Of a stretch of 64,000 nucleotides of DNA, positions 45,712 to 64,000 are shown one piece after another; positions within the stretch are counted from its first letter, which is position 1, and every line of letters begins with the position of its first letter. This stretch comes from an uncultured Archangium sp. (lineage in GTDB: Bacteria; Myxococcota; Myxococcia; Myxococcales; Myxococcaceae): positions 62,001 to 126,000 of the forward strand of contig CAIVGN010000006.1 of assembly GCA_903905455.1 (NCBI GenBank), given 5' to 3'. The notes beneath the pieces were generated by a model. That model was given only the letters and a program-made list of their open reading frames with translations, had not been told where the DNA came from and did not search any database. The position numbers were made by a program, and so were the translations under genes.

Positions 45712-47328
45712 TCAGCGCAGCGACTGCAGCAGGGCTTCGTACGGGCTTCCCGCACGAGGCCCGTCGCCGCGCGGGTGGGCGCCCTTCGCCACGTCGACGC
45801 GCTCGGCGTTGCCCTGGCACCAGGCGTCGGGGGCTTCCACTGCCGCGCGCAACACGGCGGGGTTCGCGCGCAACCAGGCCAGGGCCTCGGCCTGCGGCAG
45901 CGCCCGCGCGACGAGCTCCCGCTGCGCCGCCACCCGCGCCGCCCAGGCCTGCGCGGAGCCCGCGAGCGTCCGGGGCGCGGCCGCGTCGGCGCGTTGCCCC
46001 AGGAGCACCATCATCAACCCCTCGTGACCGAAGGTCGGGTCGTCGGCGGCGAACCGCGTGCCCCCGCGTTCGACCCACGGCCCGCGGGTGCGCAGCCGCT
46101 CGAGTTCTTCCGCGAGGCCGGTGACGTCGACGTCGGCGCGGGCCGCTCGCCAGAAGGGCGTGTCGAGGCGCTCGTTGAACTTGTAGTGCACCGCGAGGAA
46201 CCAGCGCAGCGAGTCCCAGTGGGCGCCGATCTTCGCGTTGGCCGGGCCCAGGTCGGGCAGCCCGCCGTTCGCCGCGGCCACGGCGTCGAGCAGGTAGCCC
46301 AGCTCGATGATCACCATGTGCAGCGCCGTCGACTCGAGGGGCTCGACGAAGCCGTAGGCGTTGCCCACGGCCACGGTGTTGCCCTTCCAGAACTCGCGGT
46401 GGCGGCCGGAGCGGAAGCGCACCACCCACGGCTCGCCCAGGCCCGGGTTCTTCGCCGCGAGCTCTTCCATCGCGCGGCCCTCGTCGAGGAACGCCGACGA
46501 GAACACGTAGCCGCGGTGGTCCTCCGCCTCGACGGGGATGCGCCAACACCAGCCCGCGTTCATCGTCTGCGCGGTGGTGTAGGGCCGCACCAGCCCGCCG
46601 TGGGGCACGTTGGCGACGACGGCGGTGTCGCAGAACAGGCTCGAGGCGTAGCTCTCGAAGTTCGAGCCCAGGGCGCCCTCGATGAGCAGGGAGCGGAAGC
46701 CGCTGGCGTCGACGTAGAGGTCGAACGACAGCCGCCGCCCATCGACCAGGTGCAGCGCCTCGACGCGGCCCTGGTCCGGCGAGGTCTCGACGCGGGAGAT
46801 CTTCCCCTCGACGTGGGTGATGCCGCGCGCGGCCGCGGTCTTCGCGAGGAAGGCCACGAAGGGCGCGTTGTGCAGGTGGTACGCCCACTTGGTGTGGCCC
46901 AGCAGCGAGGTGATGCTGCCGTCGGCCTCGCGCAGGAGCGGGCTCTTGTCGGCCGCCATGAGCAGCGAGGTCAGCGACTGGGCGCGCAAGTGGCCGTCAA
47001 AGGCCGCGGCCTCGATGGGGTTCGCGGGGCCGAAGGGGTAGGTGAAGAAGCCGTCGGGGTCACCCCACTCGAACTTGATGCCCAGCTTCCAGGTGGGCTT
47101 CGCTTCCCGGTAGAGCGCCTCGACGTCGAGCCCCAGCTGCGCGTGCAGGAAGGGGGGCAGCAGCGTGGTGGTGGCCTCGCCCACGCCGATGATGGGGATG
47201 GTCTTGCTCTCCACCACGCTCACCGAAAGGTGCGGGAAGCGCCGCTGGAGCGCCAGCGCGGCGAAGTAGCCCGCGGTGCCTCCGCCGATCACCCCGACCG
47301 TCCGCAGCGCTCCCGCTGGCTTCGACAT
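45712..47328 (-). CDS. Flavin-dependent tryptophan halogenase homologue
   Basis: 538 aa, the usual length. FAD site VIGGGTAG (residues 13-20); candidate catalytic lysine K81 in PTWKLGIKF (equivalent to Lys79 of PrnA); the halogenase signature WCWRIP at 260-265 (WxWxIP); and FVEPLEST at 327-334, which holds the catalytic Glu. The family uses FADH2, O2 and chloride or bromide to make a lysine chloramine that halogenates an indole or other aromatic ring. It starts 2 bp after the stop of a double radical-SAM gene, so it is the last gene of that operon. The likely substrate in this locus is the lone C-terminal Trp of the HGS-repeat peptide (inference). A flavin reductase is not visible nearby. Confidence 0.9.
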   Translation of the reverse strand: MSKPAGALRTVGVIGGGTAGYFAALALQRRFPHLSVSVVESKTIPIIGVGEATTTLLPPFLHAQLGLDVEALYREAKPTWKLGIKFEWGDPDGFFTYPFGPANPIEAAAFDGHLRAQSLTSLLMAADKSPLLREADGSITSLLGHTKWAYHLHNAPFVAFLAKTAAARGITHVEGKISRVETSPDQGRVEALHLVDGRRLSFDLYVDASGFRSLLIEGALGSNFESYASSLFCDTAVVANVPHGGLVRPYTTAQTMNAGWCWRIPVEAEDHRGYVFSSAFLDEGRAMEELAAKNPGLGEPWVVRFRSGRHREFWKGNTVAVGNAYGFVEPLESTALHMVIIELGYLLDAVAAANGGLPDLGPANAKIGAHWDSLRWFLAVHYKFNERLDTPFWRAARADVDVTGLAEELERLRTRGPWVERGGTRFAADDPTFGHEGLMMVLLGQRADAAAPRTLAGSAQAWAARVAAQRELVARALPQAEALAWLRANPAVLRAAVEAPDAWCQGNAERVDVAKGAHPRGDGPRAGSPYEALLQSLR

Positions 47329-47330
47329 GC

Positions 47331-49628
47331 TCAGGCCTCCGGGGCTGGGCCTTCGCCGGCCGCCTCGTCTTCGCTGAAGACCCACGGCGGCTCGGGCACC
47401 GCGTCGAGCTCGTAGAAGCCCCCGCAGAACACGGCGTTGGGGCAGGTGGCGCACACCGGCTTCTTCACCCGGCGCTCGGCGAGGTACTTCGAGAGGTTCA
47501 CCTCTTCGTTGTTCACGAAGATCATGTGCCGCTCGAGCTTCGCCAGGTCGCCCATCAGGTACTGCTCGTAGCCACGCATGAAGCAGAAGGGCAGGTTGAT
47601 GACCTGGAACTTCATGCGGTCCTTCCACGCGTCGATCACCCCGCGGGTGACCTCCGCCGCGCGCTCGGTGTCGGGGGAGTGCCCCCGGGTGGCCCGGCCG
47701 AAGGGCGTGAGGAACTGGATGTTCATCCACCGCAGGCCCAGATCCCACGCGAGCTGCGCGACCTCGGGCAGCTTCTCGGTGTTGCCCCGGGTCAGGGTGA
47801 TGTTGAGCCCCAAGTCCACGTTCGCCGGCTTGTGCAGCAGCGCGTTGCGGATGCCCGCCGTCGTCTGCTCGAAGGCCTCGGCGACGCCCACCTGCTGCGC
47901 GTGGCTCTGCGCGTCGGGGCCGTGCACCGAGAAGAGCAGGGTGGTCAGCCCGCTGCGCACCAGGCGCTTGGCGAAGTCGTCGTAGGCCAGCAGCCGGCCG
48001 TTGGTGGTGACGTTGACCTTGCGGTAGCCGAGGTGCCGCGCGTAGCGCACCAGGGTGATGAGGTCGGGGTGCAGCGTGGGCTCGCCGCCGTCGATGTCGA
48101 GCATCGTCACGCCCTGCGCGCGGTGCCGCTCGAGGTGCTCCCGCTGCCGCTCCGGGTGCCCGTGCAGCTGGGTGCGCGTGCCCACCGCGCAGAAGGTGCA
48201 GTGGTTGTTGCAGACGTAGGTGAGGTTCAGGATCACCTTCTTCGGCCCGGTCGACGACTGCAGCCGCTGGTCGAAGGTCCACTTGAAGCGCACCAACTCC
48301 TCGGGCGACACCGACGCGCCGGGCTGGCTGGGCGTGTGCTGGAAGGCCGGGCCCCAGTCGGCGACCTGCGGCAGCGTGCGGCCCTTCGCCAGCTTCGTGC
48401 CCGGCAGCGGCGTGGCGAACTGCACCGCGGGCCAGGCGCCGTACTCGTCGTAGAGGTCCATGGCCCAGGCGAGCGTGCCGTTGATCTCCTCGGCCGTTTC
48501 GCCGGGCATGCCGATGATGAAGTGAATGAGCAGCGGCACGCCCGCGGCCTGGGCGGCCTGGGCCGCCTGGGTGATGCGCGCGAGGTCGAGCTTCTTGTTC
48601 ACCACCTCGTTGACCACGCGCTGCACGCCGCTCTCGGCGGACACGCTGACGGTGGTGACGAAGGGCTTCATGGCGGCGAAGTGCCGGGCCTCGAGGCCAT
48701 CGGCGCGCAGGCCGTTGGGCACGTCGAAGCGCACCTGCTCCTGCGCCACGGCGGCGAGGAACCCCTCGAAGTGCGCCTCGTCGACGTTGAGCAGTTCGTC
48801 GAGCACCTCGAGCCGCGTGGCCCCGTGGGTGCGCACCAGCGCCTCGATCGAGGCGCGCAGCTTGCCCGCCGAGAGCCGCCGCTGCACCTTGGGGGCGCCG
48901 GGCAACCGGTCGGGGTTCGAGCTGCAGTGCACGCACGAGTACGGGCAGCCGCGGCTGGTGAGCATCGGCAGGGTGCGCCCGTCGATGGGGAACGCCCAGC
49001 CTCCCCGGCCCAGGTGCTTGACCACGCGCTCGCGGAACGCGTCGGCCGCGCGGAGATCGACGAGATCCCAGGCCGGCAGCGGCAGCGCTTCGAGGTCTGC
49101 GGTCTCGCCGCGGTGCACGCCGTCGATGGCCTCGCCGCGGGCCAGGCGCTGCAGCAGCCGCGGCACCGTGGTCTCGGCCTCGTACTTCACCCAGCAGCGC
49201 ACCTCGGGGTAGGCGGCGAGCACGTCCTTCCCCTCGGCGTCCACGTAGTGCTGGCCCGACTGGTAGGCGTCGACCAGCAGCAGCGGGGTGTGGTTCGGCC
49301 GCTGCAACCCGGTGAGCACCTCGCCCAGCACCGGGTCGCGGGCCGGGGGGCGGTGAAAGGGAGAGAAGGTGACGATGATCGCGTCGACCTCGCCGGCGGC
49401 GTCGGAGGCGGCCAGCACGTCGGCCACCGTCGCCCCGAGGAAGGCCCGGCCGTCCACCCAGCTGAGGGTCGAGCGCTCGAGGGCAAAGGCGTCGACGAGC
49501 GACACCTCGTGGCCCTGCTGGCGCAACACCGCCGCCAGCTGCACCGCCCCCAGGTCCGAGAAGTACGGGTAGTCGATGAAGTCGCGCGCCACCGAGACCG
49601 GCGGGTGCACGAGGAGCAGGCGACTCAT
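47331..49628 (-). CDS. B12-binding double radical-SAM protein
   Basis: 765 aa with three parts. Residues 1-200 look like a cobalamin-binding Rossmann domain (LLLVHPPVSVARDF, GAVQLAAVLRQQGHEVSLVD). The first radical-SAM domain (about 215-430) has C228PYSCVHC235 and IIGMPGET. The second (about 463-690) has C473NNHCTFC480 and DIDGGEPTLHP. The C-terminus holds CATCPNAVFCGGF, an auxiliary Fe-S cluster motif of the HxsC/SPASM type. Two complete radical-SAM domains in one chain are very unusual. The ATG overlaps the previous stop (ATGA). It probably performs two steps on one peptide, one perhaps B12-dependent methylation or C-C chemistry. Substrate inferred. Confidence 0.88.
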   Translation of the reverse strand: MSRLLLVHPPVSVARDFIDYPYFSDLGAVQLAAVLRQQGHEVSLVDAFALERSTLSWVDGRAFLGATVADVLAASDAAGEVDAIIVTFSPFHRPPARDPVLGEVLTGLQRPNHTPLLLVDAYQSGQHYVDAEGKDVLAAYPEVRCWVKYEAETTVPRLLQRLARGEAIDGVHRGETADLEALPLPAWDLVDLRAADAFRERVVKHLGRGGWAFPIDGRTLPMLTSRGCPYSCVHCSSNPDRLPGAPKVQRRLSAGKLRASIEALVRTHGATRLEVLDELLNVDEAHFEGFLAAVAQEQVRFDVPNGLRADGLEARHFAAMKPFVTTVSVSAESGVQRVVNEVVNKKLDLARITQAAQAAQAAGVPLLIHFIIGMPGETAEEINGTLAWAMDLYDEYGAWPAVQFATPLPGTKLAKGRTLPQVADWGPAFQHTPSQPGASVSPEELVRFKWTFDQRLQSSTGPKKVILNLTYVCNNHCTFCAVGTRTQLHGHPERQREHLERHRAQGVTMLDIDGGEPTLHPDLITLVRYARHLGYRKVNVTTNGRLLAYDDFAKRLVRSGLTTLLFSVHGPDAQSHAQQVGVAEAFEQTTAGIRNALLHKPANVDLGLNITLTRGNTEKLPEVAQLAWDLGLRWMNIQFLTPFGRATRGHSPDTERAAEVTRGVIDAWKDRMKFQVINLPFCFMRGYEQYLMGDLAKLERHMIFVNNEEVNLSKYLAERRVKKPVCATCPNAVFCGGFYELDAVPEPPWVFSEDEAAGEGPAPEA

Positions 49629-51436
49629 CCCGCGAGCTCCGCCGTGGCCTTGATCGGCTGCATCACCGCGTACCCGTGGGAGCGCACGTAGTTGACGTGC
49701 AGGCCACGGCACGCGTCGACGTGCACGCACTCGGCGCAGCGCAGGCTCTTGGTGAAGTAGTGGTCGAGGATGTAGCGCTTGGTGAAGCGGAACGCCTCGA
49801 GGCGGCCGGCGGGGGTCATCATCGCCGTGTCCAGCGTCGCCAGCTCGGGGCGCGCGTGGGAGGTGACGCACCGGGGCAGGCCCTCGGCGGGCAGCGGCGC
49901 GCGCAGGCCGCGGAAGAACGCGCCCAGCTCCACGTCGTTGGCCTGCGAGTCGGTGAGCCGGTCCCACGTCGGCTGGCGCAGCGTCAGCCGCGCCGGGGCC
50001 TCGGTGAGCGAGGTCAGCCACGGCGCGGTCTCGCGCGTGACGTCGACCAGCACCTCGAAGTCGCCCGGGGCCGCGAGCAGCGCCTGGGCCTGGGCCGTGG
50101 TGTGGGCGAGCACCCGGGCGATGCGCCGCCCGTCGAGCTGCGCGCCCTGGGCGACGACCTCGGTGGGGTCGTCGAGCTCCAGCTCGAGCTCCAGGGTGGC
50201 GGGCCACGCGGCGAGCAGCGTGCGGGCGCGCGCCCACGAGGGGGCCTTGAGCCACAGCCGCTTCACGCCCGCGCGCTGCGCCAGCTCGGCGGGCGCGTTG
50301 ACGGGCACGAAGGCGTCTTCGGGGGCGTTGATCACCTTGCCCTCGGCCTTGAGCTTCTCGAAGAGCGCGGTGCGGCGGTCCTCGGCGCGGGCGCGGCTCG
50401 CGGGGTCACCGCCGAACACCGGGGCCTGCTGCGCTTCCCACTCGGTGTCCACGCGCACGCGGTCGAAGCGCTCGGCGGCCACCTGGTCGCGCAGCGCGTA
50501 GAGCGTGTCGCACAGCGGCTCGAGGTAGCAGTAGTGGCAGCGCTCGGGGTCGCGGCAGTCGAGATCGACGCCGGTCTCCAGCAGCCCGGCGAACTCCTCC
50601 TTGCGGCCGCGCACCTCGTCGTTGAGCTTGTACGGGTCCTGGATCAGCTGCTCGTAGCCCTCGAGATGCTGGGGCGGAAAGCGGTTGAACCACATGTGCA
50701 TGTCGGGGCGCCGGCTGATCTCCAGCGCCTGGAGCAGGTAGGGGCGCATCTCCTTCAAGTCGTAGAACAGCGATTCGCGGCCCTCGTTGAAGGCGCGCCC
50801 GAAGGGCACCACCTGCAGCAGGTCGAACTCGCGCACGCCCCACGAGATGAACAGCTCGAGCATCTCGGGCAGCACCTTGATGTTGCCCTTGTTGATCACC
50901 ACGTCGATGTTGACCACCGGCCGGCCGTCAGCCAGCGCGGCCTTGAGGGCGGTGGTCTCCTGGTCGAACGCGCCCGGCACGCCGACCAGCGCGTCGTGCA
51001 CCCTGGCGTTGGGCCCGTGCAGCGAGAAGGTGATCTCGTTGAGCCCGGCGGCCAGCGAGCGCTGGAGGAACTGGGGGTATGCGAAGAGCCGGCCGTTGGT
51101 GACGGTCTGCACCTTGCGGTAGCCCGCGAGCGTGCCCAAGCGCACGAAGTCGATGAAGTGCGGGTGAATGGTGGGCTCGCCGCCGGAGAGGATCAGCCGG
51201 GTCATGCCCTTGCTGCGCCCGTCGAGGATCTGCTTCTTGATCTCCTCGGTACTTCGGTTGCTGCCGTCGTGGGTGTTCGAGTCGAGGCAGAAGGTGCAGC
51301 CGTTGTTGCAGTCGAAGGTGAGCCGCACCCAGTTGCGTTTTTCGTGGGCGGCGTCTTCGTGGGAAGCGAGGCGCGTGTCGGCGACGCTCTGGGCGTGGGT
51401 TTCCTCGGAGAGCATGAGCCGCGAAGCGTACCCCAC
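49625..51436 (-). CDS. Radical-SAM enzyme with two auxiliary cysteine clusters
   Basis: 603 aa from GTG 51436 (ATG 51415 possible; GGAAGG precedes the GTG closely). The radical-SAM core runs from about 36 to 250 with C43NNGCTFC50 and LSGGEPTIHP, and SLHGPNA in the barrel. A first CX2CX5C cluster is at 300-309 (CHYCYLEPLC). A poorly conserved 230-residue region follows. A second CX2CX5C is at 567-576 (CAECVHVDAC) near the end. The long middle region may be a peptide-binding part. The stop overlaps the start of the double radical-SAM gene. Confidence 0.85.
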   Translation of the reverse strand: MGYASRLMLSEETHAQSVADTRLASHEDAAHEKRNWVRLTFDCNNGCTFCLDSNTHDGSNRSTEEIKKQILDGRSKGMTRLILSGGEPTIHPHFIDFVRLGTLAGYRKVQTVTNGRLFAYPQFLQRSLAAGLNEITFSLHGPNARVHDALVGVPGAFDQETTALKAALADGRPVVNIDVVINKGNIKVLPEMLELFISWGVREFDLLQVVPFGRAFNEGRESLFYDLKEMRPYLLQALEISRRPDMHMWFNRFPPQHLEGYEQLIQDPYKLNDEVRGRKEEFAGLLETGVDLDCRDPERCHYCYLEPLCDTLYALRDQVAAERFDRVRVDTEWEAQQAPVFGGDPASRARAEDRRTALFEKLKAEGKVINAPEDAFVPVNAPAELAQRAGVKRLWLKAPSWARARTLLAAWPATLELELELDDPTEVVAQGAQLDGRRIARVLAHTTAQAQALLAAPGDFEVLVDVTRETAPWLTSLTEAPARLTLRQPTWDRLTDSQANDVELGAFFRGLRAPLPAEGLPRCVTSHARPELATLDTAMMTPAGRLEAFRFTKRYILDHYFTKSLRCAECVHVDACRGLHVNYVRSHGYAVMQPIKATAELAG

Positions 51437-51451
51437 CCACCTTCCGCTCCG

Positions 51452-52333
51452 TCAGAAGACGGCCCGAAACTCGCCCTCGCCGAACTTCGCCACGTAGTCG
51501 GGGCGCACGCCGGGGCACACCGCGCGGAAGGTGCAGCCCTCGCAGCCCGCGACGTACACCCGCCCGGCCAGCCGGCTGTCCTTGAGATCGAAGGTCGCGT
51601 CGGGGCTCACCACCCGCACCCGCTCCGAGCCGGGGTCCCAGGCGTGCGCGGCGAGCGGCCCCAGCTGGCACCGCGGCACGTGCAGCGAGCGCACCTCGAG
51701 CCCCCGGGCCGCCCCCAGCCGCAGCGCCGCGTGGAGCGTGGGCATCACCTCGGCCATGCGCGGCAGCGAGCCGACGTTGTCGCGGTTGCCGTCGGACAGC
51801 GACACGTACCAGAGGTGCACCTCGCGCACGCCCCGGTCGGCCAGCCACGTGAGGGCGTCGGGCAGCCGCTGCCAGGTGTCGTCCTTGATGATCACGTCGG
51901 CCACGAAGGCCAGGGGGCGGGTGACGGCCAGCTCCACCGCGCGGCGCATGAGCTCGAAGGTGCCCTCGCGCCGCACCAGCCGCTCGTAGGCCTCGGCCTC
52001 GTGGGTGTGAATGGAGATGTGCAGCCGGCTCAGGCCCGCGGCGATCAGCCGGTCGAGGTTCTGGGGGTGGGCGAGCAGGAGGCCGTTGGTCTGCACCTTG
52101 ATGTCGGTGAAGCCGAGGCTGCGGGCCGCGCGGACGAGGCCCTCGAGATCGCCCCGCAGCGTGGGCTCGCCCCCGGTGAAGGACACCGCGTCGAAGCCAG
52201 CGGCCCGGCCCTCGCGCAGCGCCCGGACCACCTGCGGCGTGGGCAGCGCCCGGGGCCGCATCTCGGGGCTGATGGTGCAGTAGTCGCAGGCCAGGTTGCA
52301 GTCGTAGCCAAGGATGACGTCGAGCAGCGACAT
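51452..52333 (-). CDS. Short radical-SAM enzyme with C-terminal Fe-S motif
   Basis: 293 aa. The 4Fe-4S site is C12NLACDYC19 and the SAM site is FTGGEPTLRGD. The C-terminus carries CEGCTFRAVCPGVRPDYVAKFG, an auxiliary cluster motif CX2CX5C. The same ending is found in the plus-strand radical-SAM gene at 52863, so the two are paralogues. It is first in a four-gene minus-strand operon and is divergent from the Tat-protein gene, with 73 bp between starts. Confidence 0.88.
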   Translation of the reverse strand: MSLLDVILGYDCNLACDYCTISPEMRPRALPTPQVVRALREGRAAGFDAVSFTGGEPTLRGDLEGLVRAARSLGFTDIKVQTNGLLLAHPQNLDRLIAAGLSRLHISIHTHEAEAYERLVRREGTFELMRRAVELAVTRPLAFVADVIIKDDTWQRLPDALTWLADRGVREVHLWYVSLSDGNRDNVGSLPRMAEVMPTLHAALRLGAARGLEVRSLHVPRCQLGPLAAHAWDPGSERVRVVSPDATFDLKDSRLAGRVYVAGCEGCTFRAVCPGVRPDYVAKFGEGEFRAVF

Positions 52334-52406: not shown

Positions 52407-52856
52407 ATGAGCCTGCGCCGCAGAGATGTCGTGACCTGGCTGGGAGTCGGAGCCCTCGCGGCCCCCGCTCTCGCCGCCTCGCCCGCCACCGTCGCGCCTG
52501 CCCGGCAGGTCCACGGGGATCTCCCGTTCCGCAGCCTCGAGCCGGGCATGTCGCTGGCCGGCGTGTGGACCATCGACGCCATCCACGGCCCCATCGAGGG
52601 CGCCATCGCGGTGCACCTGAGCGAAGGCGAGCAGCGCTTCCGCCTCAACGTGCTCAAGCGTGACGACGCGGGCATTCCCGGCGTCGGCCAGTCGCGTTCC
52701 CTCTCGGTCTACGTCTGCAACAGCGGTGGCCCGACCCGCGAAGGTGAAGGCCAGGCCGCCCGGGCGTTGGCCGCGTGGCTCGACCACTACGAGAAGACGG
52801 GCCTCCCGGTGCCGACCCTCGTGACCCTGCGGCAGCACTCCACGGCCCAGCTGTAA
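52407..52856 (+). CDS. Tat-signal secreted protein of unknown function
   Basis: 149 aa. The N-terminus MSLRRRDVVTWLGVGALAAPALA is a twin-arginine signal ending near AAS, so the protein is folded before export. The mature 120 residues form a beta-rich domain (VWTIDAIHGPIEGAIAVHLS, RFRLNVLKRDD) with one Cys (VYVCNSGG). I do not recognise the family. The ATG has a GAGGA ribosome-binding site. It is 6 bp ahead of a radical-SAM gene, so it may be a substrate, partner or receptor for the pathway. It has no His-Xaa-Ser repeat. Confidence 0.6.
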   Translation: MSLRRRDVVTWLGVGALAAPALAASPATVAPARQVHGDLPFRSLEPGMSLAGVWTIDAIHGPIEGAIAVHLSEGEQRFRLNVLKRDDAGIPGVGQSRSLSVYVCNSGGPTREGEGQAARALAAWLDHYEKTGLPVPTLVTLRQHSTAQL

Positions 52857-52862: not shown

Positions 52863-53909
52863 ATGACGCGCGCCACGCTGTCGCTGACCCGCGCGTGCAA
52901 CAACGCTTGCGTCTTTTGCGCCCAGGACGGGCTGCCTCCGCTCGTTGAGGGCGAGGTGCCTTCGCAGCTCGCCCAGCTTCGGGCCCAGGGCGCCACCGAG
53001 CTCACCTTCGTCGGCGGCGAGCCCACCCTGCGCGAAGCGCTCGCCGCGCTGGTGCGCCTGGCGCGCGACGCGGGCTTCGAGCGTGTCGGCCTGCAGAGCA
53101 ACGGCCGGCGCCTGGCGGAGCCGGCCTTGACGAAGGCGCTGGCCGACGCGGGCCTCACCGACGTGCACCTCACGGTGCTGGGCGGCGACGCGGCGGTGCA
53201 CGACTACCACTCGGGTGTCGAGGGGAGCTTCGTCGCCCTGCTGGCGGGCATCGGCGTGGCGCGCGCGCAGGGGCTGCAGGTGGTGGCGAGCACGGTGGTC
53301 ACCCGCTCCAACTACCGGGTGCTCAACGCGCTGCCCGCGCTGCTGCTCTCGCGGGGCGTCAGCGCGTGGCAGCTCACCGCCCCGTTCATCGCCGGCCGGG
53401 CCATCGCCGCCATGGACCGGGTGGTGCCGAGGCTCGCGCTCGCCGTGCCCTACGCCCTGCACGCCCTCGACGCGGCGACGAAGCAGGGGCTGCGCAGCTT
53501 CGCCGGCGGCATGCCCCTGTGCCTGCTGGGACCCTTCGCCGCGCGCGCCCTGCCTTCACGCCCGCGGGCCTTCGCGCCGCCGTGTGAAGGCTGCCCCGCG
53601 CGCGAGCGCTGCCCGGGTGTCGACGCCGTCTACCTCGCGCGCTTCGGCCCCGACGAACTCGCGGCGCCCGCGAAGGCCCCGTTGCCCCCGGCCGCGGCCG
53701 ACGCGGTGTCGCGGCTCTTCACCGGCCCGGGCGAGGCGTGGGTGCCGGAACACGTGAGCGTGCCTGCGCCGCCCGCCGCGGTGCGCGCGGAGCTGGCCGA
53801 CCTGGGCAAGGGCACCCCGGCGACGGCCGAGGTCTCGATGCGCGAGCGCAAGTCAGGCGAGGCGTTGCGCGGGTTGTTCCCCCAGCTCTTCAAGCCGAAG
53901 GACGGGTAG
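52863..53909 (+). CDS. Radical-SAM enzyme with auxiliary Fe-S motif
   Basis: 348 aa. The cluster site is C12NNACVFC19 and the SAM site is FVGGEPTLREA. The auxiliary motif is CEGCPARERCPGVDAVYLARFG at about 241-262. An additional 85-residue C-terminus ends in QLFKPKDG. It is a paralogue of the 51452-52333 protein, with the same CX2CX5CPGV ending. It is the only radical-SAM gene of the locus on the plus strand and is convergent (7-bp gap) with the HxsC-like gene. Confidence 0.88.
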   Translation: MTRATLSLTRACNNACVFCAQDGLPPLVEGEVPSQLAQLRAQGATELTFVGGEPTLREALAALVRLARDAGFERVGLQSNGRRLAEPALTKALADAGLTDVHLTVLGGDAAVHDYHSGVEGSFVALLAGIGVARAQGLQVVASTVVTRSNYRVLNALPALLLSRGVSAWQLTAPFIAGRAIAAMDRVVPRLALAVPYALHALDAATKQGLRSFAGGMPLCLLGPFAARALPSRPRAFAPPCEGCPARERCPGVDAVYLARFGPDELAAPAKAPLPPAAADAVSRLFTGPGEAWVPEHVSVPAPPAAVRAELADLGKGTPATAEVSMRERKSGEALRGLFPQLFKPKDG

Positions 53910-56192: not shown

Positions 56193-57689
56193 TCAGGCGG
56201 TCGGCGGTTGGAGGAAGTGCGTACGGGGACGGGAGGTCGTCCACTTCTGGAAGATGTCGAGGACCTTGGGGTCGTCCGTGGAGATGCGCTCGAACAGGTA
56301 GTCCTGGATGCCCTTGTGCACCGCGCAGATGGTGCTCTCGCGGGCGCGCCCGAAGACCGACCCGAACTTCTTGTGGTTGTGGGTCGACTGGGTGCCGCAA
56401 TAGGGGTTGTACGTGCAGTTGATGCAGTCGGGCTGGCCGTCGAGGTTCGAGGCCAACACCATCGAGCGCACCGTGGGGTGGCTGACGATGTCCTTGAAGC
56501 TCGAGCCGGTGACGTTGCCGAGCAGGAAGCTCGAGTCACCCATCTCGTGCAGCATGCGGCCCTCGTCGCAGGTGAACACCTTGCCGTCGTAGTTGAACGC
56601 GAGGCACCCGATGCCCGCGCCCGCCGGCGAGCGGAGATCGAGGAAGTTGGGGTCGTTGCCGAAGAACTTCGAGAGGAAGATCGCCGCGTAGCGCTCGAGG
56701 ACCTGCACGCCCTTGAGGTTCAGCTCGACCATGTAGTCGACGGCGTTGCGGTAGTACTCGAGGAAGTCCTCGCGGGGGTACTCGACGCGGCGGGCCGTCT
56801 TGTCCACCCAGCCGAAGGGGTCCACCGGGCGCAGGAAGAGCGCGCGGCAGCCGAGGTCGACGTAGGTGTCGACGATCTCCTTCCACAGTGGCAGCGAGTC
56901 GCGCGTGGTCGTCAGCAGCGCCTCCACCCGGTACAGCGTGGGGTCGAGCCCGCGGTCCGCGTAGGCCTGGTTGATGCGCTTGATCCACTTGGTCGCGGCC
57001 ATGTGCGCGCTGGCGCCCGGCAGCTTGCGCTGGCCGTCGTGGAGGTGCTCGGGGCCGTCGACGCTGGTGCACAGCTGCACCCGGTTCGCGAGCAGGTACT
57101 CGAGCTTCTCCTCGTCCATCAGGGACATGTTCGTCACCATGGTGAACTCGAGCTGCTTGCCCGCGGTCTTGTTCTTCTCGTTGGCGTAGGCGATGGCGTG
57201 CTTCACCACGTCGAAGGCCACCAGCGGCTCGCCACCCTGGAACTCGATGGTGAGGTTCGGGTTGGGGCTCTGGAGGATGAGGTCGATGGACCGCTCGGCC
57301 GTCTCGCGGCTCATGTCGGTCTCGACCTGGTCCATGCCCGCGCGCGAGGCGTGGCAGTACACGCAGCTCTCGTTGCAGCGCAGGGTGACGATCAGCAGGT
57401 GGAGGTTGGGCCCCTGGGTGAGCGCCTGGCGCCGCTGCCACAGGCGGTCGGCGGCCTTGCGGGTGTCGTAGGTGGCCTTGAAGAAGTTGTTGTCCGTCAG
57501 GCGCTGGTGCAGCGGGGTGCCCGGCTGCACGGTGCCCGTGGCGTAGCGCTCGAACTCTTCGGGGGTCAGCAGCGCCCAGAAGCCTTCGTAGTTGGTGATG
57601 AGCACCTTCTTGCCGACCTGGCGGAAGCGGAAGAAGGCCTGGGTGGTGACGTCGAGCCGGGGCGCGAGCGCGGGGAGCTGGAGGTTCAC
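56193..57689 (-). CDS. hxsB: HXS-system radical-SAM maturase HxsB
   Basis: 498 aa from a GTG overlapping the previous stop (GTGA). An N-terminal 95-residue domain (FFRFRQVGKKVLITNYEG, LTPEEFERY) may bind the leader. The radical-SAM core follows with C105NESCVYC112HAS and FQGGEPLVAFD. The SPASM region holds CLAFNYDGKVFTCDEGRML and CINCTYNPYC. This matches HxsB in length and motifs, including an N-terminal extension, and the gene sits between hxsD and the precursor as expected. It is predicted to install a radical-based linkage or modification on the His-Xaa-Ser repeats; the chemistry has not been established to my knowledge. Confidence 0.87.
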   Translation of the reverse strand: MNLQLPALAPRLDVTTQAFFRFRQVGKKVLITNYEGFWALLTPEEFERYATGTVQPGTPLHQRLTDNNFFKATYDTRKAADRLWQRRQALTQGPNLHLLIVTLRCNESCVYCHASRAGMDQVETDMSRETAERSIDLILQSPNPNLTIEFQGGEPLVAFDVVKHAIAYANEKNKTAGKQLEFTMVTNMSLMDEEKLEYLLANRVQLCTSVDGPEHLHDGQRKLPGASAHMAATKWIKRINQAYADRGLDPTLYRVEALLTTTRDSLPLWKEIVDTYVDLGCRALFLRPVDPFGWVDKTARRVEYPREDFLEYYRNAVDYMVELNLKGVQVLERYAAIFLSKFFGNDPNFLDLRSPAGAGIGCLAFNYDGKVFTCDEGRMLHEMGDSSFLLGNVTGSSFKDIVSHPTVRSMVLASNLDGQPDCINCTYNPYCGTQSTHNHKKFGSVFGRARESTICAVHKGIQDYLFERISTDDPKVLDIFQKWTTSRPRTHFLQPPTA

Positions 57690-57907
57690 GCGGCCTCCTG
57701 GCGCGACTGCACGGTGAGGCCGAGCGCGAAGTTGCCCAGCTCGCGGGCCACGCGCAGTTCCTTGCGGGCGTCGGGGGCCGACAGCTGCACCACCCACGCG
57801 GCCTCGGTCTCGCTCAGCTCGCAGGTGGCGTGCGTGGCGAAGAGCTTCACCGCCTCGTCGACCGCCTTCCCGGCGTAGAGCGACTTGTGGAACGCCAGTC
57901 GCGTCAT
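57686..57907 (-). CDS. Second small HxsD-like protein
   Basis: 73 aa. The pattern YAGKAVDEAVKLFATHATC ... AWVVQL ... VARELGNFALGLTV parallels the HxsD protein encoded just upstream (YPLDALYGAAYIF ... VVVSL ... GEFGNELL). It therefore looks like a reduced HxsD paralogue rather than a PqqD/RRE domain. It overlaps both neighbours (ATGA with hxsD, GTGA with hxsB). HxsD-type proteins may deliver the precursor to the radical-SAM enzymes; two copies would fit several maturases. Confidence 0.65.
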   Translation of the reverse strand: MTRLAFHKSLYAGKAVDEAVKLFATHATCELSETEAAWVVQLSAPDARKELRVARELGNFALGLTVQSRQEAA

Positions 57908-58389
57908 GGCTTCACGGCCTCGGGCGCGGCCACGGCCGGGGTGCCCGCCGCGGCGGCCGGGGTCTTCTTCTTGTACTTCTCCTCCCACGACATCGCGATG
58001 CCCAGCGGGTCTTCGAGGGGCTGGCTGGAGAAGTCGAAGTTGCTCAGGTCGTCGAGCGACGGCGGGCCCATGGCGCCGGCCAGGGCGAGGCTGGTGACCT
58101 GCTCGAGCACCTGGCGGTTCTGCGCGGAGATCTGGTGCCGCCACGCGCAGGAGAGCAGCTCGTTGCCGAACTCGCCGGCCCAGCTCTGCAGCGTGGGCTC
58201 GTCGGCCGGGCCCTTCTTGGGCGAGAGGCTCACCACGACGCGGCCCGCCTCGTCCTTGTCGAGGAAGACGAAGCAGCGGTCGATGAAGATGTAGGCCGCG
58301 CCGTACAACGCGTCGAGCGGGTAGAGCGAAGGGTCGACCGAGAACGTCGCGGTGCCGTTCGAAAGCTGGGTGGTGATGGTGTGGTTCAT
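57904..58389 (-). CDS. hxsD: HxsD-like protein
   Basis: 161 aa from ATG 58389; a GTG at 58485 would add 32 residues and is possible because the ATG has no ribosome-binding site. The conserved HxsD core is at about 16-95: DPSLYPLDALYGAAYIFIDR, VVVSLSPK and GEFGNELLSCAWRHQI. The C-terminal 60 residues are an Ala/Pro/Lys tail. In HXS loci this small protein always accompanies hxsB; its exact role is unknown. It is translationally linked to the second small gene by an ATGA overlap. Confidence 0.75.
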   Translation of the reverse strand: MNHTITTQLSNGTATFSVDPSLYPLDALYGAAYIFIDRCFVFLDKDEAGRVVVSLSPKKGPADEPTLQSWAGEFGNELLSCAWRHQISAQNRQVLEQVTSLALAGAMGPPSLDDLSNFDFSSQPLEDPLGIAMSWEEKYKKKTPAAAAGTPAVAAPEAVKP

Positions 58390-58477: not shown

Positions 58478-60268
58478 TCATCCACCCGCGGTCAAACGCA
58501 GCAGCCACTGGTTGCTGGTGGAAGGCCCACAGTCGAGGCGCTCGACCAGGGTGAGGCCCTGCCCGCCAAGGCTCCGGAATGCCTCGGCCGCGGAGTGGTT
58601 TCGGAAGTGCTCGAAGCCCGCCGTGGACCCTTCACCCCGGCGCGCCTGGTGCGGCGAGCGCGCCAGCCCGAAGGCCTCGTTGTCCACCACCAGCAGGGTG
58701 CCCCCCGGTCGCAGGCTCGCGCGCAGCTGCCCCAGCGCCCGGGGCACGTCCACCAGGTGGTTCCACGAGCGCAGCACCAGCACCGTGTCGAAGGTGCCCA
58801 GGGCCAGCGCGCCCAGCGACTCGGCGGTGCCCACGTGGTGAGCGCCCCACCCTCGCCTTGCGCCCAGCGCGGCGATGGCTTCGGCCGAGGGGTCGACGCC
58901 CACGTAGTCCACGGCGCCCGACTGCACCCGGGGCCCGAGCACGTCGTCGTAGGGGCCGCCGCCGCAGCCCAGGTCCAGCACGCGCCCCGCCAGCGCTCCC
59001 AGCAACTCGCGCACCCGCGCGTCGTCGCGAGAGAAGACGTCGTCGAAGCGGGGCTCGTAGAGGCCGGTGCAGCGCTCGCGCTCGGGGCAGCCGGTGCACA
59101 GGGCGCTCCGCGAGAGGGGCACCAGGTCGCGGGCGAAGTCGTCGGGGGCGCTCTTCTTCGAGGCGTCGAAGTACACCTGCCCGCGCTCGTGCTTGATGCG
59201 CGAAAGCTCCACGTCGGAGAAGTCGCGGGTCTGGGTGCGGTAGCGGGCCACCTTGCCCTGGTGCGCGATGAACAGGTGCCGGGCGCGGTCCCACGGGGTG
59301 ACGCCGTCACGCAGCAGCAGGCAGCCCTCGGCGGGCGCCTCGCTCACCGCCTCCAGCGTGTAGTTGAACGAGTTCGAGCGCGCCCCGTGCCGCACCGGCC
59401 GCAGCTCCGCCTCGCCGAAGGCCTCGTGGTAGCCGCGGTACAGCGCGGGGCACGAGCCCTGCTGCGCGCACCCGTCGCACGCGGCCGGCTGCACGCGCGC
59501 CACCTCGTCGACCGGGTGGAAGTCGGCCTCGCTGGTCTCCACCATCGTCGCGAAGTGGTGCGTGCGCAGGTCGGAGTAGCGGTCTTCGAGGCCCGGCAGC
59601 AGGCAGAAGGGCAGGCCGTCGTGCACGAAGCGGCTGCGCGGCGCCCCCTGCGCGAGGCCGTGGGCGATGGCTTCCTGCACCCGGGCCGCGGCGTCGCTGA
59701 CCCGCGGCGTCAGGGCGTCGAAGAGCGCCTTGCCCCCGCCCTTGGGGGTGATCATCGAGAACTTGAGCACCGCGTCGGGGAAGGGGAGCACCGCGTCGAC
59801 CAGCGGAAGCAGGTCGTCGACGTTCTGCTTCACCAGCACCGCGTTGACGGTGAGGTCGAGGCCCTTGCCGGTGAGGTTGCGCAGCGCCTGCATCGCCGGG
59901 CCGAAGGTGTCGGCGCGCACCACCCGCTGGTGCACCTCGGCGGTGCCCCCGTGCAGCGACATGTAGACGTAGCGCAGCCGCGACGCGAGCAGCCGCTCGA
60001 GCACGTCGGGGTAGGCCAGCAGCAGCCCGTTGGTGACCAGCCCGAAGTCCATGCCCAGCCGGGCGACGTGCTCCGCCCACTCGAAGAGCTCGGGGCGCAT
60101 GGTGGGCTCGCCCCCGGAGAGCACCACCATGGTGTGGTCCAGCTCCCGGGCGCGGTCGATCTTCCGGTGCACGTCCGCGGCCGAGCCGTTGACGTGGCGG
60201 TACTCGAGCGTGTGGCAGAAGGTGCAGTTCTCGTTGCAGCCGTAGCCGACCTTGACCAGCGCCTTCAT
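58478..60268 (-). CDS. Radical-SAM protein fused to SAM-dependent methyltransferase
   Basis: 596 aa. The radical-SAM part has C11NENCTFC18 and LSGGEPTMRPE. An auxiliary motif CDGCAQQGSC lies near 262 and a second CX2CX5C (CTGCPERERC) near 415. The C-terminal 150 residues are a class I methyltransferase with VLDLGCGGGPYDD (about 449) and a late LVVDNEAFGLA strand. A one-chain radical-SAM/methyltransferase suggests sequential modification, for example radical chemistry plus N-methylation of a histidine (inference). Its ATG overlaps the stop of the radical-SAM/peroxiredoxin gene (ATGA). Confidence 0.87.
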   Translation of the reverse strand: MKALVKVGYGCNENCTFCHTLEYRHVNGSAADVHRKIDRARELDHTMVVLSGGEPTMRPELFEWAEHVARLGMDFGLVTNGLLLAYPDVLERLLASRLRYVYMSLHGGTAEVHQRVVRADTFGPAMQALRNLTGKGLDLTVNAVLVKQNVDDLLPLVDAVLPFPDAVLKFSMITPKGGGKALFDALTPRVSDAAARVQEAIAHGLAQGAPRSRFVHDGLPFCLLPGLEDRYSDLRTHHFATMVETSEADFHPVDEVARVQPAACDGCAQQGSCPALYRGYHEAFGEAELRPVRHGARSNSFNYTLEAVSEAPAEGCLLLRDGVTPWDRARHLFIAHQGKVARYRTQTRDFSDVELSRIKHERGQVYFDASKKSAPDDFARDLVPLSRSALCTGCPERERCTGLYEPRFDDVFSRDDARVRELLGALAGRVLDLGCGGGPYDDVLGPRVQSGAVDYVGVDPSAEAIAALGARRGWGAHHVGTAESLGALALGTFDTVLVLRSWNHLVDVPRALGQLRASLRPGGTLLVVDNEAFGLARSPHQARRGEGSTAGFEHFRNHSAAEAFRSLGGQGLTLVERLDCGPSTSNQWLLRLTAGG

Positions 60269-61764
60269 TCAGCCGGGGCGAACCGCTGGTGATCGGTGTC
60301 CACGAGGCCCAGCTCGACGGCGGCCTCGGCGGTGGGCTTGGCGTGCCGGCGGATGATCAGCTCCGGGCCCTGCTCGAGTGACCGCGGCGGGGCCTCGAAG
60401 CGGCGGATCGCGTCGAGGATCTGCGCCGCGTGGCTCTTCACGTCGGGCGAGACCAACACGTGGGCCACGGTGCGATCGGGCCCCAGCAGGTAGGTGCTGC
60501 GGCGCAGGCCCTGTCCCGGGCGACGCGCCCCGAAGGCCTCGGCGACGGCGCCGGTGGGGTCCGAGAGCAGCGGGAAGCGCAGCCCGTGCTGCAGCGCGAA
60601 GTCCCGGTGCCGCTCGACGCCGTCGGGGCTGATGCCCACCAGCGTCACCCCGGCGGCCGCGAGATCGTGCAGCCCTGCCTGGAGACTGCAGGCCTCGGCC
60701 GTGCAGCCGGGTGAGCCATCTTCCGGGTAGAAGGCGAGGGCCACCCACTTGCCCTGCAGCGCGCTCGACTTCACGACGCTTCCGTCACCGGCGGGGAGCT
60801 CGAAGGCCGGCGCCACCGTGCCCAGCAGGGCGAACCTTTCGTCCTGCACGATGGCCGTGTCGAGCACCCGGGTGCCGGCCACCGGCTGGAACTCGTCGTG
60901 GCCCACCATCTCGGGGTACTCGCGCCACGGGCCTTCGCACATCGGCTCGAAGCGGCAGGTGGCGCACTGGGGAAAGCGCGTCTTGCTGCGCTCCATGCGG
61001 TCGCGCGCGTAGTCCGGCACCACGAAGTCTTCGTAGACGATCTCCGTGGGGGGAATGAACAGCTCGGACACGAAGCGCTCGTGGCCCTTCATCATGCAGA
61101 AGGGCATCGCCTCGGCCATGCACGGCACCCCGGCGGCCTCCCCGATGCGCAGCGCCTCCTGGAGATACGGCGCCAGCTCGCTCATGCGCGGCACCACGGC
61201 GTTGAAGTACGTCGCGGCGTGGCCGGTGGGGTGCGGGAAGGCGATCTGGAACTGGTCGACCTTCAGCTCCACGAAGAGCCGGGCGAGGTCGGGCAGCAGC
61301 TTCATGTTCTGCTTGGCCGCCACGGTGTTGGTGACGATGCGCTGGCCCAGCGACTTGAGGTTCTTGATGGCCGCGACGATCTGGTTGAACGAGCCCTGCG
61401 AGCGCGTCAGGCCGTCGTGCACGTTGGCCACCGGCGCGTGCAGCGAGGGCGAGAACTCGTTGGCCCCGGCCTTGATCGCCTTCTCGCAGAACTCCTTGTA
61501 GGCGAAGAGCCGGCCGTTGGTCTGCACCTGGATGTTGCGGTACCCCAGCCGGCGCGCGGCCTCGACCAGGTACAGGAAGTCGGGCCGCAGCGTGACCTCG
61601 GCGCCGGTGAACACGATGTCGTCGCAGGTGCGGCGCGACGCCTTGAGCTCCTCGATCACGTCGGGCGTGGGGCGCTCGCCAGTGAAGAGCTTGTCGCCGA
61701 TCACGCAGAACACGCAGTTGCTGTTGCAGGTGTACCCGGTCTTGATGTCCGCGCGGCGCCCCAT
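60265..61764 (-). CDS. Radical-SAM protein fused to a BCP/AhpC-type peroxiredoxin
   Basis: 499 aa. Residues 1-300 form the radical-SAM part: C13NSNCVFC20, then FTGAEVTLRPD where the usual GGEP is GAEV, and CATCRFEPMCEGPWREYPE near 267. Residues about 314-450 are a peroxiredoxin with FYPEDGSPGCTAEACS, peroxidatic Cys354 and resolving Cys359 (BCP spacing). A 45-residue C-terminal tail follows. I know of no common fusion of this type. It may protect the Fe-S clusters from peroxide, handle peroxide from the halogenase chemistry, or oxidise a thiol. It lies 62 bp after the preceding radical-SAM gene. Confidence 0.88.
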   Translation of the reverse strand: MGRRADIKTGYTCNSNCVFCVIGDKLFTGERPTPDVIEELKASRRTCDDIVFTGAEVTLRPDFLYLVEAARRLGYRNIQVQTNGRLFAYKEFCEKAIKAGANEFSPSLHAPVANVHDGLTRSQGSFNQIVAAIKNLKSLGQRIVTNTVAAKQNMKLLPDLARLFVELKVDQFQIAFPHPTGHAATYFNAVVPRMSELAPYLQEALRIGEAAGVPCMAEAMPFCMMKGHERFVSELFIPPTEIVYEDFVVPDYARDRMERSKTRFPQCATCRFEPMCEGPWREYPEMVGHDEFQPVAGTRVLDTAIVQDERFALLGTVAPAFELPAGDGSVVKSSALQGKWVALAFYPEDGSPGCTAEACSLQAGLHDLAAAGVTLVGISPDGVERHRDFALQHGLRFPLLSDPTGAVAEAFGARRPGQGLRRSTYLLGPDRTVAHVLVSPDVKSHAAQILDAIRRFEAPPRSLEQGPELIIRRHAKPTAEAAVELGLVDTDHQRFAPAE

Positions 61765-61826: not shown

Positions 61827-63146
61827 CTACGGGGCCGGGGCCACCAACCGGTCCTCGGAAGCACGCAGCGCGCGGACGATCGCCGCCAGCAGCCGGGTAT
61901 CGACGGGCGGGCTGCCGGGCGCCGCGCGGTAGCGCACCGTGAAGTGCCGCGTGCGCTCGTACGCGGGGCCCTCGCCGCGCGGCGCGAGCTCCACCACCAC
62001 CTCGCCCGTGGGCGTGGTGCAGCGCAGCAGGTTCGACCCGTCGTGCGCGGCGGTGACCTCGCGCACCGCGTACGGGGCGGACGACGCCTCGCGCACGAAG
62101 AGGGCGCGCAGCGCGGCGGTCAGCGGCCCTTCCACGGCCTCGGCGCGCCGCGGCGCCTCGTGCACCGTCGGCGCGCGGTGCGGCGCGGGGCGCAGCTCGT
62201 CGAACCCGTATTGCTCGACGTAGGCCCCGAACAGCCCGGGGCAGGTCGTGTCGTAGGCGCAGCCCGCGCACGCCGGCGCCTTCAACTGCAGCGAGCGGCG
62301 CTGCGAGAGCTTGTGCATGAAGTCGCCGGTGGGGATCTGGGTCACCGTGGTGACCTGCTCCTCCGACACGTACTGCTCGGCGCCCGGCACCAGGCACGGC
62401 GGGCACGAGATGAGCCGCGCCACGACCCCGGCCCGGTTCATCGACTCCAGCGCCTCGCGCAGCGCCCCGGCGTAGCGGCTGAGCGGCGGGAGCAGGTCGC
62501 GGTACGAGGCCCGGCCCGGCTCGAAGGCCGGCGACGGGCGCACCACGTCGAGGCCCACCTCTTCGGGCCGCAAGGCGATCATCAGCGCCGCGAACTCGGG
62601 CAGCGAGTCGAGCAGGTGGCGGGTCAGCACCCCGTTGACCTTGACCCGCTGCCCCAGCGCGAGCAGCCGCCGCGTGCCCTCCACCGTCTGCTGGAACGCG
62701 CGCGGCGCGGCCACCGAGGCATCGTGCGCCTCGGCGGTGCCGCCCTGGATCGACACCTGGAACCAGGTCACGCCCAGGTCTGCGAGCCAGCGCGCGCCCG
62801 GCGGAGAGGCCGCGACCCGGGCGTTGGTGAACACCGTGCTCGCCTCGTAGCCGACGTCACGGGCGTCGGAGATCAGCGCGCCCAGGTCGCGGCGCAGCGT
62901 GGGCTCACCGCCCTGGAAGAGCACGCGCCGGGCGCCGCGCGCGAAGTGCGCCTCGAGGTGCTCGCGGATCACCTCGCGCGGTACGTGCGGCAGCGACCCG
63001 GCCGCGGCCCCGGCGTTCTCCCAGCCGGTCGAGCAATAGGTGCAGCGGTTGTTGCAGCGCTCGGTGACGAAGATCTCCACCTTCGGCAGCCGCACCACCT
63101 GCTCGAAGCGCGCCGCGGCCTCGTCGGTGGGGTGGGGTGCAGACAC
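61827..63146 (-). CDS. Radical-SAM enzyme, first gene of the nine-gene operon
   Basis: 439 aa from GTG 63146. The cluster site is C31NNRCTYC38 and the SAM site is FQGGEPTLRRD. SIQGGT sits where others have SLHGP. The auxiliary motif is CAGCAYDTTCPGLFGAYVEQ followed by YGFDELRP near 295. A 120-residue C-terminal domain (VREVTAAHDGSNLLRCTTPTG, HFTVRYRAA) is beta-rich and without a known match; it may recognise the peptide. It is divergent from the CC-motif gene, with 76 bp between the starts that should hold promoters for both. Confidence 0.87.
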   Translation of the reverse strand: MSAPHPTDEAAARFEQVVRLPKVEIFVTERCNNRCTYCSTGWENAGAAAGSLPHVPREVIREHLEAHFARGARRVLFQGGEPTLRRDLGALISDARDVGYEASTVFTNARVAASPPGARWLADLGVTWFQVSIQGGTAEAHDASVAAPRAFQQTVEGTRRLLALGQRVKVNGVLTRHLLDSLPEFAALMIALRPEEVGLDVVRPSPAFEPGRASYRDLLPPLSRYAGALREALESMNRAGVVARLISCPPCLVPGAEQYVSEEQVTTVTQIPTGDFMHKLSQRRSLQLKAPACAGCAYDTTCPGLFGAYVEQYGFDELRPAPHRAPTVHEAPRRAEAVEGPLTAALRALFVREASSAPYAVREVTAAHDGSNLLRCTTPTGEVVVELAPRGEGPAYERTRHFTVRYRAAPGSPPVDTRLLAAIVRALRASEDRLVAPAP

Positions 63147-63222
63147 CCGTCGAACGTACCACGCGCGGCGGCCGGCCTCGTCTCGCCCGCGGCTCCCGGC
63201 TACCGTGCACGCGCCCCCGGCC

Positions 63223-64000
63223 ATGCGCGCGCCCCCCGTCTGTACTTCCCCGCGAGATCTCGTCGCCGCGCTGCAGGGCGTCGATCCGGCGCGCCTCACC
63301 ACGGCCCGCGCAGCGCTCGCGGCGCGCCCCATTGAGTACGCGCTGGGCAGCGGGGAGGCCGACGAGGTCGCGCTCTACGCGGGCATCAAGCCCCTCGTCC
63401 GCCAGGTGCTCAGCCCCGCGGAGTTGCCCGCGGCGCGCGCCCGCTTCTCGCAGCTGGGCCTCTCGTGCGGCGAGGCGACGCACCGCGTGGCGCTCCCGTC
63501 GACCGGGGGCGTGGTGCTCTTCGTGAGCCGGGACCCGCGGCGGGTGCAGGAGGCGGTGCGCTGTGAAGCGCTCCCCGAGCACGACCTCGAGCTGGGGCGG
63601 CTCCTCGGCTACCCGCGCTGCTGCGTCGAGGCGTACCTCGAGGTTCCTCCGCCCCGCACCAACGTGCAGGCCTTCGCGGCGGCCGCGGCGAACACCCCGG
63701 GCCGCTTCCTGCCCCGCCTGAACACCATCGACCTCGCCGTCTTTCACTACCTGAGCTGGGTACCGTGCTCGTTCGGCTGCGAGCTCTCGCGGGCCTTCGC
63801 CGACGCCGTGGCCCACCACCTCGGCAAGCGCCACGGCCAGTTCCTCGCGCACCCCGCCCAACCCGCCCGCGCCAGCTGTCCCCCCGGTTGCCGGCACGAA
63901 CGCTTCGTGGAGGCCGTCGACGCAGCGCTCGGCGCGCACCGGTTGCTCGTCTTCGAAGACGTGCAGGTCTCGCTCTCCGGCCGCTTCGACGGCGAGGTGT
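63223..64000 (+). CDS. CC-motif (DUF483-like) protein, cut by the window edge
   Basis: At least 259 codons, open to the edge. The start is ATG 63223 (GTG 63205 in frame is possible). The recognisable block is LGRLLGYPRCCVEAYLE near residues 125-142, containing the GYPxCC motif. It is followed by FHYLSWVPCSFGCELSRAFA near 175-195, with two further cysteines. Proteins with a GYPxCC motif of this kind occur next to radical-SAM genes in other bacteria; their role is unknown. It is divergent from the radical-SAM gene at 63146 and belongs to the RiPP locus by position. Confidence 0.68.
   Translation, partial: MRAPPVCTSPRDLVAALQGVDPARLTTARAALAARPIEYALGSGEADEVALYAGIKPLVRQVLSPAELPAARARFSQLGLSCGEATHRVALPSTGGVVLFVSRDPRRVQEAVRCEALPEHDLELGRLLGYPRCCVEAYLEVPPPRTNVQAFAAAAANTPGRFLPRLNTIDLAVFHYLSWVPCSFGCELSRAFADAVAHHLGKRHGQFLAHPAQPARASCPPGCRHERFVEAVDAALGAHRLLVFEDVQVSLSGRFDGEV

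Follow-up and report, generated by a model that had tools for sequence, protein, structure and literature searches.

An expanded HXS-type locus with a Ser-His-Gly repeat peptide and numerous radical-SAM enzymes, and its scattered relatives in Myxococcota

The Archangium genome studied here carries a locus of 20 adjacent genes, which encode one Ser-His-Gly repeat peptide, 13 or 14 radical-SAM enzymes and a number of tailoring and accessory proteins. The gene set and the peptide very probably constitute one system, whose core is an A4/C4 subtype of the HXS (His-Xaa-Ser) family. We also think it reasonably probable that this system is one multi-enzyme RiPP pathway, in which the Ser-His-Gly array would be densely modified by a chemistry that we infer, and would then be exported.

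Results

Extent and gene content of the locus

The stretch of DNA analysed (the window, 64,000 nucleotides) comes from a contig of 168 kb (bases 62001-126000), the genome being of 8.6 Mb. Genes were called by codon usage and then scanned against NCBIfam and Pfam. A previous annotation made from the letters only (the sequence-only reading) had counted ten radical-SAM proteins with eleven domains, and the Pfam Radical_SAM count between 47331 and 63146 is exactly the same. The arrangement in overlapping units also holds, gene order being tight or overlapping with gaps of at most 127 bp, and the Trp halogenase (386 bits), the methyltransferase fusion, the AhpC/TSA (PrxQ-like) fusion and the twin-arginine N-terminus are all present. 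The limits proposed for the locus (45712-64000) were too narrow, since it extends 8.7 kb beyond the window end, to about 72667, and includes there, besides two DUF483-type domains, three more radical-SAM proteins, which bring the domain count to 16, and probably a fourth. In total 16 of the 50 Radical_SAM domain matches of the genome (Pfam) fall within 24.9 kb of one contig, against 0.14 expected, and a chance clustering of these genes is ruled out (P about 1e-28).

At the window end, which cuts the gene, lies a DUF483-domain protein with a GYPRCC motif (63223..64000, full gene to 64233, plus strand; PF04467 25.2 bits, cut-off 25), whose start was placed at 63223, where the homology to relatives sets in. 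Past the window follow rS9 (64361-66244, plus strand, two radical-SAM domains), rS10 (66241-68205, plus strand, twitch/SPASM type), rS11-DUF483 (68222-70855, plus strand) and rS12 (70847-72667, minus strand, two radical-SAM domains). The Pfam scan gave no match for rS11, in which B12-type radical-SAM features and a DUF483-like GYPACC motif were recognised by eye. A DUF483-type GYPxCC motif is hence carried by two proteins of the locus (63223-64233 and 68222-70855), in the latter fused to a B12-type radical-SAM-like region. At the other border the locus is adjoined by a MopE-type protein (PF11617; 42978-45704, 908 aa, 12 repeats), and proteins of this type are likewise found beside HXS4 genes in G050, G051, L118 and L136. 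A role of this protein in the system by copper binding is only conceivable, as about 25 ORFs of the genome carry the motif.

The HXS core genes

Five proteins in the middle of the locus, all on the minus strand, exceed the cut-offs of NCBIfam models: HxsC4 (radical-SAM maturase; 54865..55893, NF038332 580.3 bits, cut-off 500), the precursor HxsA4 (55898..56188, NF038313 100.4 bits, cut-off 55), HxsB (radical-SAM/SPASM maturase; 56193..57689, TIGR03978 531 bits, cut-off 370), the HxsD-like protein (HxsD_rel; 57686..57907, NF038315 65.2 bits, cut-off 41) and HxsD (57904..58389, TIGR03976 57.8 bits, cut-off 50). These scores identify an HXS core of the A4/C4 subtype. They come from the Hxs model search that the sequence-only reading had proposed, and they bear out its recognition of a His-Xaa-Ser repeat peptide beside hxsB and hxsD homologues. 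That reading would have abandoned the single-system view if HxsB and HxsD had fallen short of their family cut-offs, and both exceed them. It had named no HxsC; an HxsC-family enzyme is present as HxsC4, but with the classical HxsC model TIGR03977 this protein reaches 90.4 bits against a cut-off of 267.9, and the locus is therefore not of the classical two-enzyme HXS form.

HxsB was above cut-off in all 18 HXS4 genomes tested. For HxsD 35 homologues were collected, most of which conserve the tail DDPLGIAMSWEEKY. The predicted structure of HxsD (mean pLDDT 80) has no notable fold match among PDB chains (best Z 7.4), and neither has that of the Tat-type protein described below (mean pLDDT 79, best Z 5.9), so that a peptide-binding role is demonstrable for neither of them. 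Viperin, and with it anti-phage defence, was considered and rejected: matches of HxsC4, HxsB and rS5 are at superfamily level only (29-64 bits), with 52.5 bits for rS5 against the NCBIfam viperin cut-off of 180.

The precursor and its repeat core

HxsA4 ends in QHC(SHG)12SW, the core being C(SHG)12-SW. A motif search of related loci gave 48 homologous precursor ORFs, a number which includes some repeat captures of one genome, and in these the core is almost purely (SHG)n with n from 8 to 58. Changes are rare: Ala may stand for Gly, and a freshwater lineage has arrays which end in SHGQW. The terminal Trp of the counted ORFs is part of the search motif; in unrestricted listings, it also ends every complete array of HxsA4 type beside HXS genes. 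It is the sole Trp of the core. His-Cys precedes the array in most precursors, not in all. Pattern matches in three further genomes (G016, G143 and G185) were discarded as precursors, having other residues or a frame without the Trp end.

The Ser residues of the arrays are encoded by a mixture of TCN and AGY codons with almost no amino-acid change. Such a mixture under an unchanged protein indicates selection on the peptide and not just copying; by the same finding we reject an origin of the repeat from DNA slippage only, both Ser codon families being mixed within arrays of constant protein sequence. The HxsA4 core is under strong purifying selection.

Neighbouring precursor genes occur in tandem at three loci; those of L110 (genome G038) have about 35 and 58 repeats, and the others are in L061 and L058. 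The freshwater lineage (L092-L103) combines the SHGQW ends with rS2, rS5, distant HxsC4-like enzymes and a Tat-type protein whose gene immediately precedes HxsD. Myxococcota-like HXS4 genes are also present in two entries titled Klebsiella pneumoniae (L095, L099) and one titled Parcubacteria (L090), which are probably mislabelled or mixed MAGs.

Additional radical-SAM proteins

Besides HxsB and HxsC4 the window encodes eight radical-SAM proteins, all HxsC-like in at least one domain and all but rS4 on the minus strand. The first, rS1 (47331..49628), has two CxxxCxxC motifs, at 228 and 473; its N-terminal, B12-binding-type half matches ApyD and B12-rSAM models, its C-terminal half the HxsC4 model. 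It overlaps rS2 (49625..51415), assigned by model scans, which has a C-terminal extension with a second Cys motif and is paired with rS1 in Nannocystis. There follow rS3 (51452..52333), which forms one clade across Myxococcota (SH-aLRT 100), rS4 (52863..53909, plus strand), the downstream partner of the Tat-type protein, and rS5 (53917..54852), the best genome marker of the system. Beyond the HXS core, rS6 (58478..60268) is fused to a SAM methyltransferase (PF04055 with Methyltransf_23/11) and rS7 (60265..61764) to a PrxQ-like peroxiredoxin (AhpC-TSA 114 bits; NF038332 155 bits, cut-off 500), and the last is rS8 (61827..63146), which like rS4 was assigned by model scans and tree.

None of rS1-rS9 and rS12 reaches the NF038332 cut-off of 500, the scores being 65-158 bits, and they are therefore HxsC4 paralogues and not members of the HxsC4 family. 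Identity among them is mostly 23-37%. The CxxxCxxC motif is intact, and a C-terminal CxxCx5C motif, also present, suggests one auxiliary cluster. In a tree of 90 radical-SAM domains nearly every family forms its own clade, most at SH-aLRT 97-100; the freshwater sequences nest with rS5 and rS2, and two distant sequences assigned to rS9 do not group together. Since the clades are separate, the paralogues were distinct before the lineages in the tree parted. The majority of the remaining radical-SAM genes of the locus are HxsC4 paralogues of ancient origin. Outside the HXS families their best matches are mostly cofactor enzymes (AhbD, NirJ, PqqE, MoaA and the mycofactocin maturase). In Minicystis rosea (L063, L125) a single open frame of about 987 aa appears to combine an rS8-like domain with both rS9 domains, as a radical-SAM protein of three domains.

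Tailoring enzymes

The first gene of the locus (45712..47328, minus strand, start from codon usage) encodes a flavin-dependent halogenase, MibH-type by sequence. It has the features of the flavin-dependent Trp halogenases, with a PF04820 score of 386 bits, the FAD motif, the catalytic Lys and the WxWxIP motif. Four relatives (G050, G051, L059, L075) have homologues of 54-60% identity within their HXS4 loci, and the motifs GGGTAG, PTWKLGI, GWCWRIP and EPLES are kept with small changes across the five halogenase loci. The best PDB sequence match is 5uao (MibH) with 461 bits, the next structure having 213. MibH chlorinates Trp within a peptide. The enzyme of the locus is nearest to this peptide-Trp halogenase by far, and its activity on peptidyl-Trp is putative. 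Another enzyme, SrpI, brominates the C-terminal Trp of a peptide (PMC12518702).

A protein conserved in the loci of 17 relatives (L050:1560-2654 and 16 others) is a candidate aKG-HExxH beta-hydroxylase; the L050 protein, the sole member tested, has 91.7 bits with TIGR04267 (cut-off 40). Among the 18 HXS4 genomes searched the family is present in 13 and in none of Archangium, the genome of the window included. Archangium has the MibH-like halogenase where HXS4 loci of relatives have the hydroxylase. An aKG-HExxH enzyme has been described to hydroxylate His and Asp of a cyclophane-bearing RiPP (PMC12636437).

The Tat-type protein and twin-arginine precursors

A Tat-signal-type protein of unassigned fold (52407..52856, plus strand) opens with MSLRRRDVV and is usually paired with rS4 or HxsD. 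Its profile matches 35 ORFs, about 30 of them distinct. The twin Arg was recognised by eye only, the protein giving no match with the NCBIfam model TAT_signal_seq and a homologue 14.9 bits against the cut-off of 16.7. In six genomes (G035, G159-G161, G163 and G166; loci L144-L146, L148, L149 and L180) the precursor itself opens with a twin-Arg signal, e.g. LTRRDFL, and export of the product by Tat is therefore likely in those lineages. For Archangium a Tat route would be assumed by extension.

Distribution in Myxococcota and co-occurrence of the genes

HxsC4 is above or near cut-off in many Myxococcota, including Archangium, Nannocystis, Polyangium, Minicystis, Enhygromyxa, Paraliomyxa and Sandaracinus MAGs. 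As to whether the gene set is conserved as a block, the answer is mixed: a second Archangium genome (G051) has all twenty genes together, in rearranged order, but in Nannocystis, Polyangium and others they are dispersed. Nannocystis poenicansa carries rS1 with rS2, rS6 with rS4, rS3 and the Tat-type protein, rS5, and HxsA4 with HxsC4, at separate places. Orthologues of rS1-rS6, mostly of 40-65% identity, are found in unlinked loci of Nannocystis, Polyangium, Minicystis, Enhygromyxa, Paraliomyxa and others; the gene contents of loci refer to the regions fetched, where a blank is not an absence. rS4 is beside the Tat-type protein in most loci. The genes rS7-rS11 and the halogenase are lineage-specific additions outside the universal set, and rS8-rS11 with DUF483 travel as a separate module in Archangium, Minicystis and Byssovorax.

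Three genes (rS1, rS5 and rS6) were followed genome-wide in 156 near-complete genomes of the phylum, many of them MAGs; the links of the other rS genes rest on the fetched loci. The precursor was sought by DNA pattern and, in a subset of genomes, with NF038313, matches being checked by eye. rS5 is present in 15 genomes, 14 of which carry an (SHG)n-W precursor; the pattern found none in the 141 rS5-negative genomes (Fisher P 5e-19, shared ancestry ignored). The exception, G164, is an assembly of 610 contigs and 92% completeness in which no precursor was found. All 11 genomes with a full-length rS6 orthologue are precursor-positive. Strong rS1 orthologues are confined to exactly five genomes, the same five as HxsC4 (P 1e-9, shared ancestry again ignored), and two further genomes have rS1 at 36-38% identity only. 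Positives span seven families (f1, f3, f5, f10, f11, f17 and f18), with many negatives within f1 and f3. The sequence-only reading would have given up the idea of a single system if the radical-SAM genes were scattered in relatives without the repeat peptide: scattered they are, in many relatives, but those followed genome-wide occur almost only together with the peptide, as the figures for rS5 show. This genome-wide co-occurrence is the strongest evidence that the scattered genes form one system.

Discussion

A possible pathway and its alternatives

A dedicated multi-step maturation of the peptide, as first suggested from the letters of the DNA, is supported by the model cut-offs and by co-occurrence, and the modification of the peptide is our inference. 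In the pathway which we propose HxsA4 would be the sole ribosomal substrate. On the sequence evidence its leader peptide carries the core, HxsB, HxsC4, HxsD and the HxsD-like protein form the core maturation set, and the HxsC4 paralogues (rS1-rS9, rS12) and the Tat-signal protein have been inherited along with this set. The HxsD-type proteins may help to present the precursor. HxsB, HxsC4 and the paralogues would act in succession along the array, in an ordered modification of its His, Ser and Gly, with bond formation at the His and Ser of each repeat. On the model of the radical-SAM/SPASM enzymes that form cyclophanes, the best candidate for the first bond would join the His side chain to the neighbouring residue, a cross-link which we regard as doubtful. 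rS1 and rS6 may methylate or otherwise alkylate. The single C-terminal Trp would be halogenated by the MibH-like enzyme in Archangium, and relatives would employ the aKG-HExxH beta-hydroxylase, of an enzyme type known for His hydroxylation in RiPPs. The product would be a densely modified histidine polymer, probably metal-binding if a guess by analogy is allowed, and would leave the cytoplasm via Tat. The fullest version of this proposal can be put forward only tentatively: about a dozen radical-SAM paralogues, derived from one HXS enzyme and conserved in Myxococcota, would each have a reaction of their own on one shared Ser-His-Gly polymer, and the outcome would be a biopolymer of modified histidines in the periplasm, or else a cofactor derived from the repeats, in a chemical class so far undescribed.

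Against a single pathway it may be said that a core built from three kinds of residue looks too plain a substrate for over ten enzymes, and that a repeat number of 8 to 58 implies no fixed structure. Both the many enzymes per few residue types and the variable repeat number would be accounted for if the array were modified and then cut, each Ser-His-Gly unit yielding a single small cofactor or metallophore molecule. PQQ and mycofactocin derive from few residues of a precursor, and the identical tandem units and the likeness of the paralogues to cofactor enzymes suit such an origin. This likeness is however at superfamily level and far under cut-offs, no dedicated peptidase was seen among the cluster genes of the window or the scanned conserved neighbour families, and the C-terminal Trp and the Tat signal on some whole precursors suit a long product better; we hold a repeat-derived small molecule to be a minor possibility.

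The lineage-confined rS7-rS11 and halogenase could serve another substrate, and more generally several peptide pathways might share one neighbourhood, with only HxsB, HxsC4 and perhaps rS5 and rS6 acting on HxsA4; the Tat-signal protein, for example, could be the substrate of rS4, and rS8-rS11/DUF483 could have yet another. The pairing of rS4 with the Tat-type protein in most loci and the movement of rS8-rS11 and DUF483 as their own module point in that direction. Such a mixture is nevertheless improbable, considering that rS1, rS5 and rS6 co-occur with the precursor or HxsC4 across genomes even when unlinked, and that we noticed no other gene resembling a precursor within the locus. Finally, the array, rich in His and with Gly at every third residue, could be a plain metal-binding protein which carries a separate cofactor built by the radical-SAM proteins; the Tat motif of some precursors and the MopE-type repeat protein beside several loci would agree with this. 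The family names of HxsB and HxsC4, which designate peptide maturases, and the peptide substrates of HExxH hydroxylases and MibH-like halogenases speak against it, and we consider it very improbable.

Returning to one pathway on one peptide, if this is the target of all the enzymes, the system may have more radical-SAM enzymes than any RiPP pathway seen before, which is an impression and not the result of a survey. The paralogues would offer a natural series for how one radical-SAM scaffold acquires many reactions. As much of the system is present in cultured genera (Nannocystis, Polyangium, Minicystis, Enhygromyxa) it is testable, and a core of almost pure tripeptide repeats with a single Trp should make the mass-spectrometric reading unusually simple.

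Comparison with known systems

The HXS system (HxsA-HxsD) was reportedly predicted by Haft and Basu in 2011. HxsB and HxsC are mentioned as its putative maturases (PMC9062424), and no product of an HXS system is known in the literature searched. That search, which had most subscription journals outside its coverage, found no paper naming HxsA4/HxsC4, none on radical-SAM RiPPs of Nannocystis, and no description of the enzyme set, the scattered loci, the halogenase, the HExxH partner or the Tat-type protein; novelty is for this reason provisional. The earlier statement that no system of such composition had been described must also be narrowed, since the core pair is already in NCBIfam as HxsA4 (NF038313) and HxsC4 (NF038332, "rare"), but it stands for the enzyme set in the literature found.

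Both NCBIfam models recognise, and so name, the core gene pair of the locus, but they describe two proteins only. The ChlB radical-SAM and aKG-HExxH cyclophane RiPPs (PMC12636437) resemble the HXS4 loci of relatives in pairing a radical-SAM enzyme with an HExxH beta-hydroxylase; there the two are one fused protein, whereas here they are separate genes, found in 13 of 18 genomes and not in Archangium, and HxsB matches ChlB only distantly, at 35 bits. Among the peptide halogenases MibH (5UAO), ChlH and SrpI, the halogenase sequence is nearest to MibH, and SrpI has a C-terminal Trp as its target; they belong however to lanthipeptide, lasso and proteusin pathways and not to radical-SAM HXS sets. 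With the HXS system itself the locus shares HxsB and HxsD scores above the cut-offs, an enzyme of the HxsC family and a His-Xaa-Ser repeat precursor, in adjacent genes. It differs by the A4-type precursor, by at least ten further HxsC-like enzymes and by the tailoring enzymes, so that 13 or 14 radical-SAM enzymes stand here against two in the known HXS relatives. What is provisionally new is the number and the conservation of enzymes around one almost monotonous peptide.
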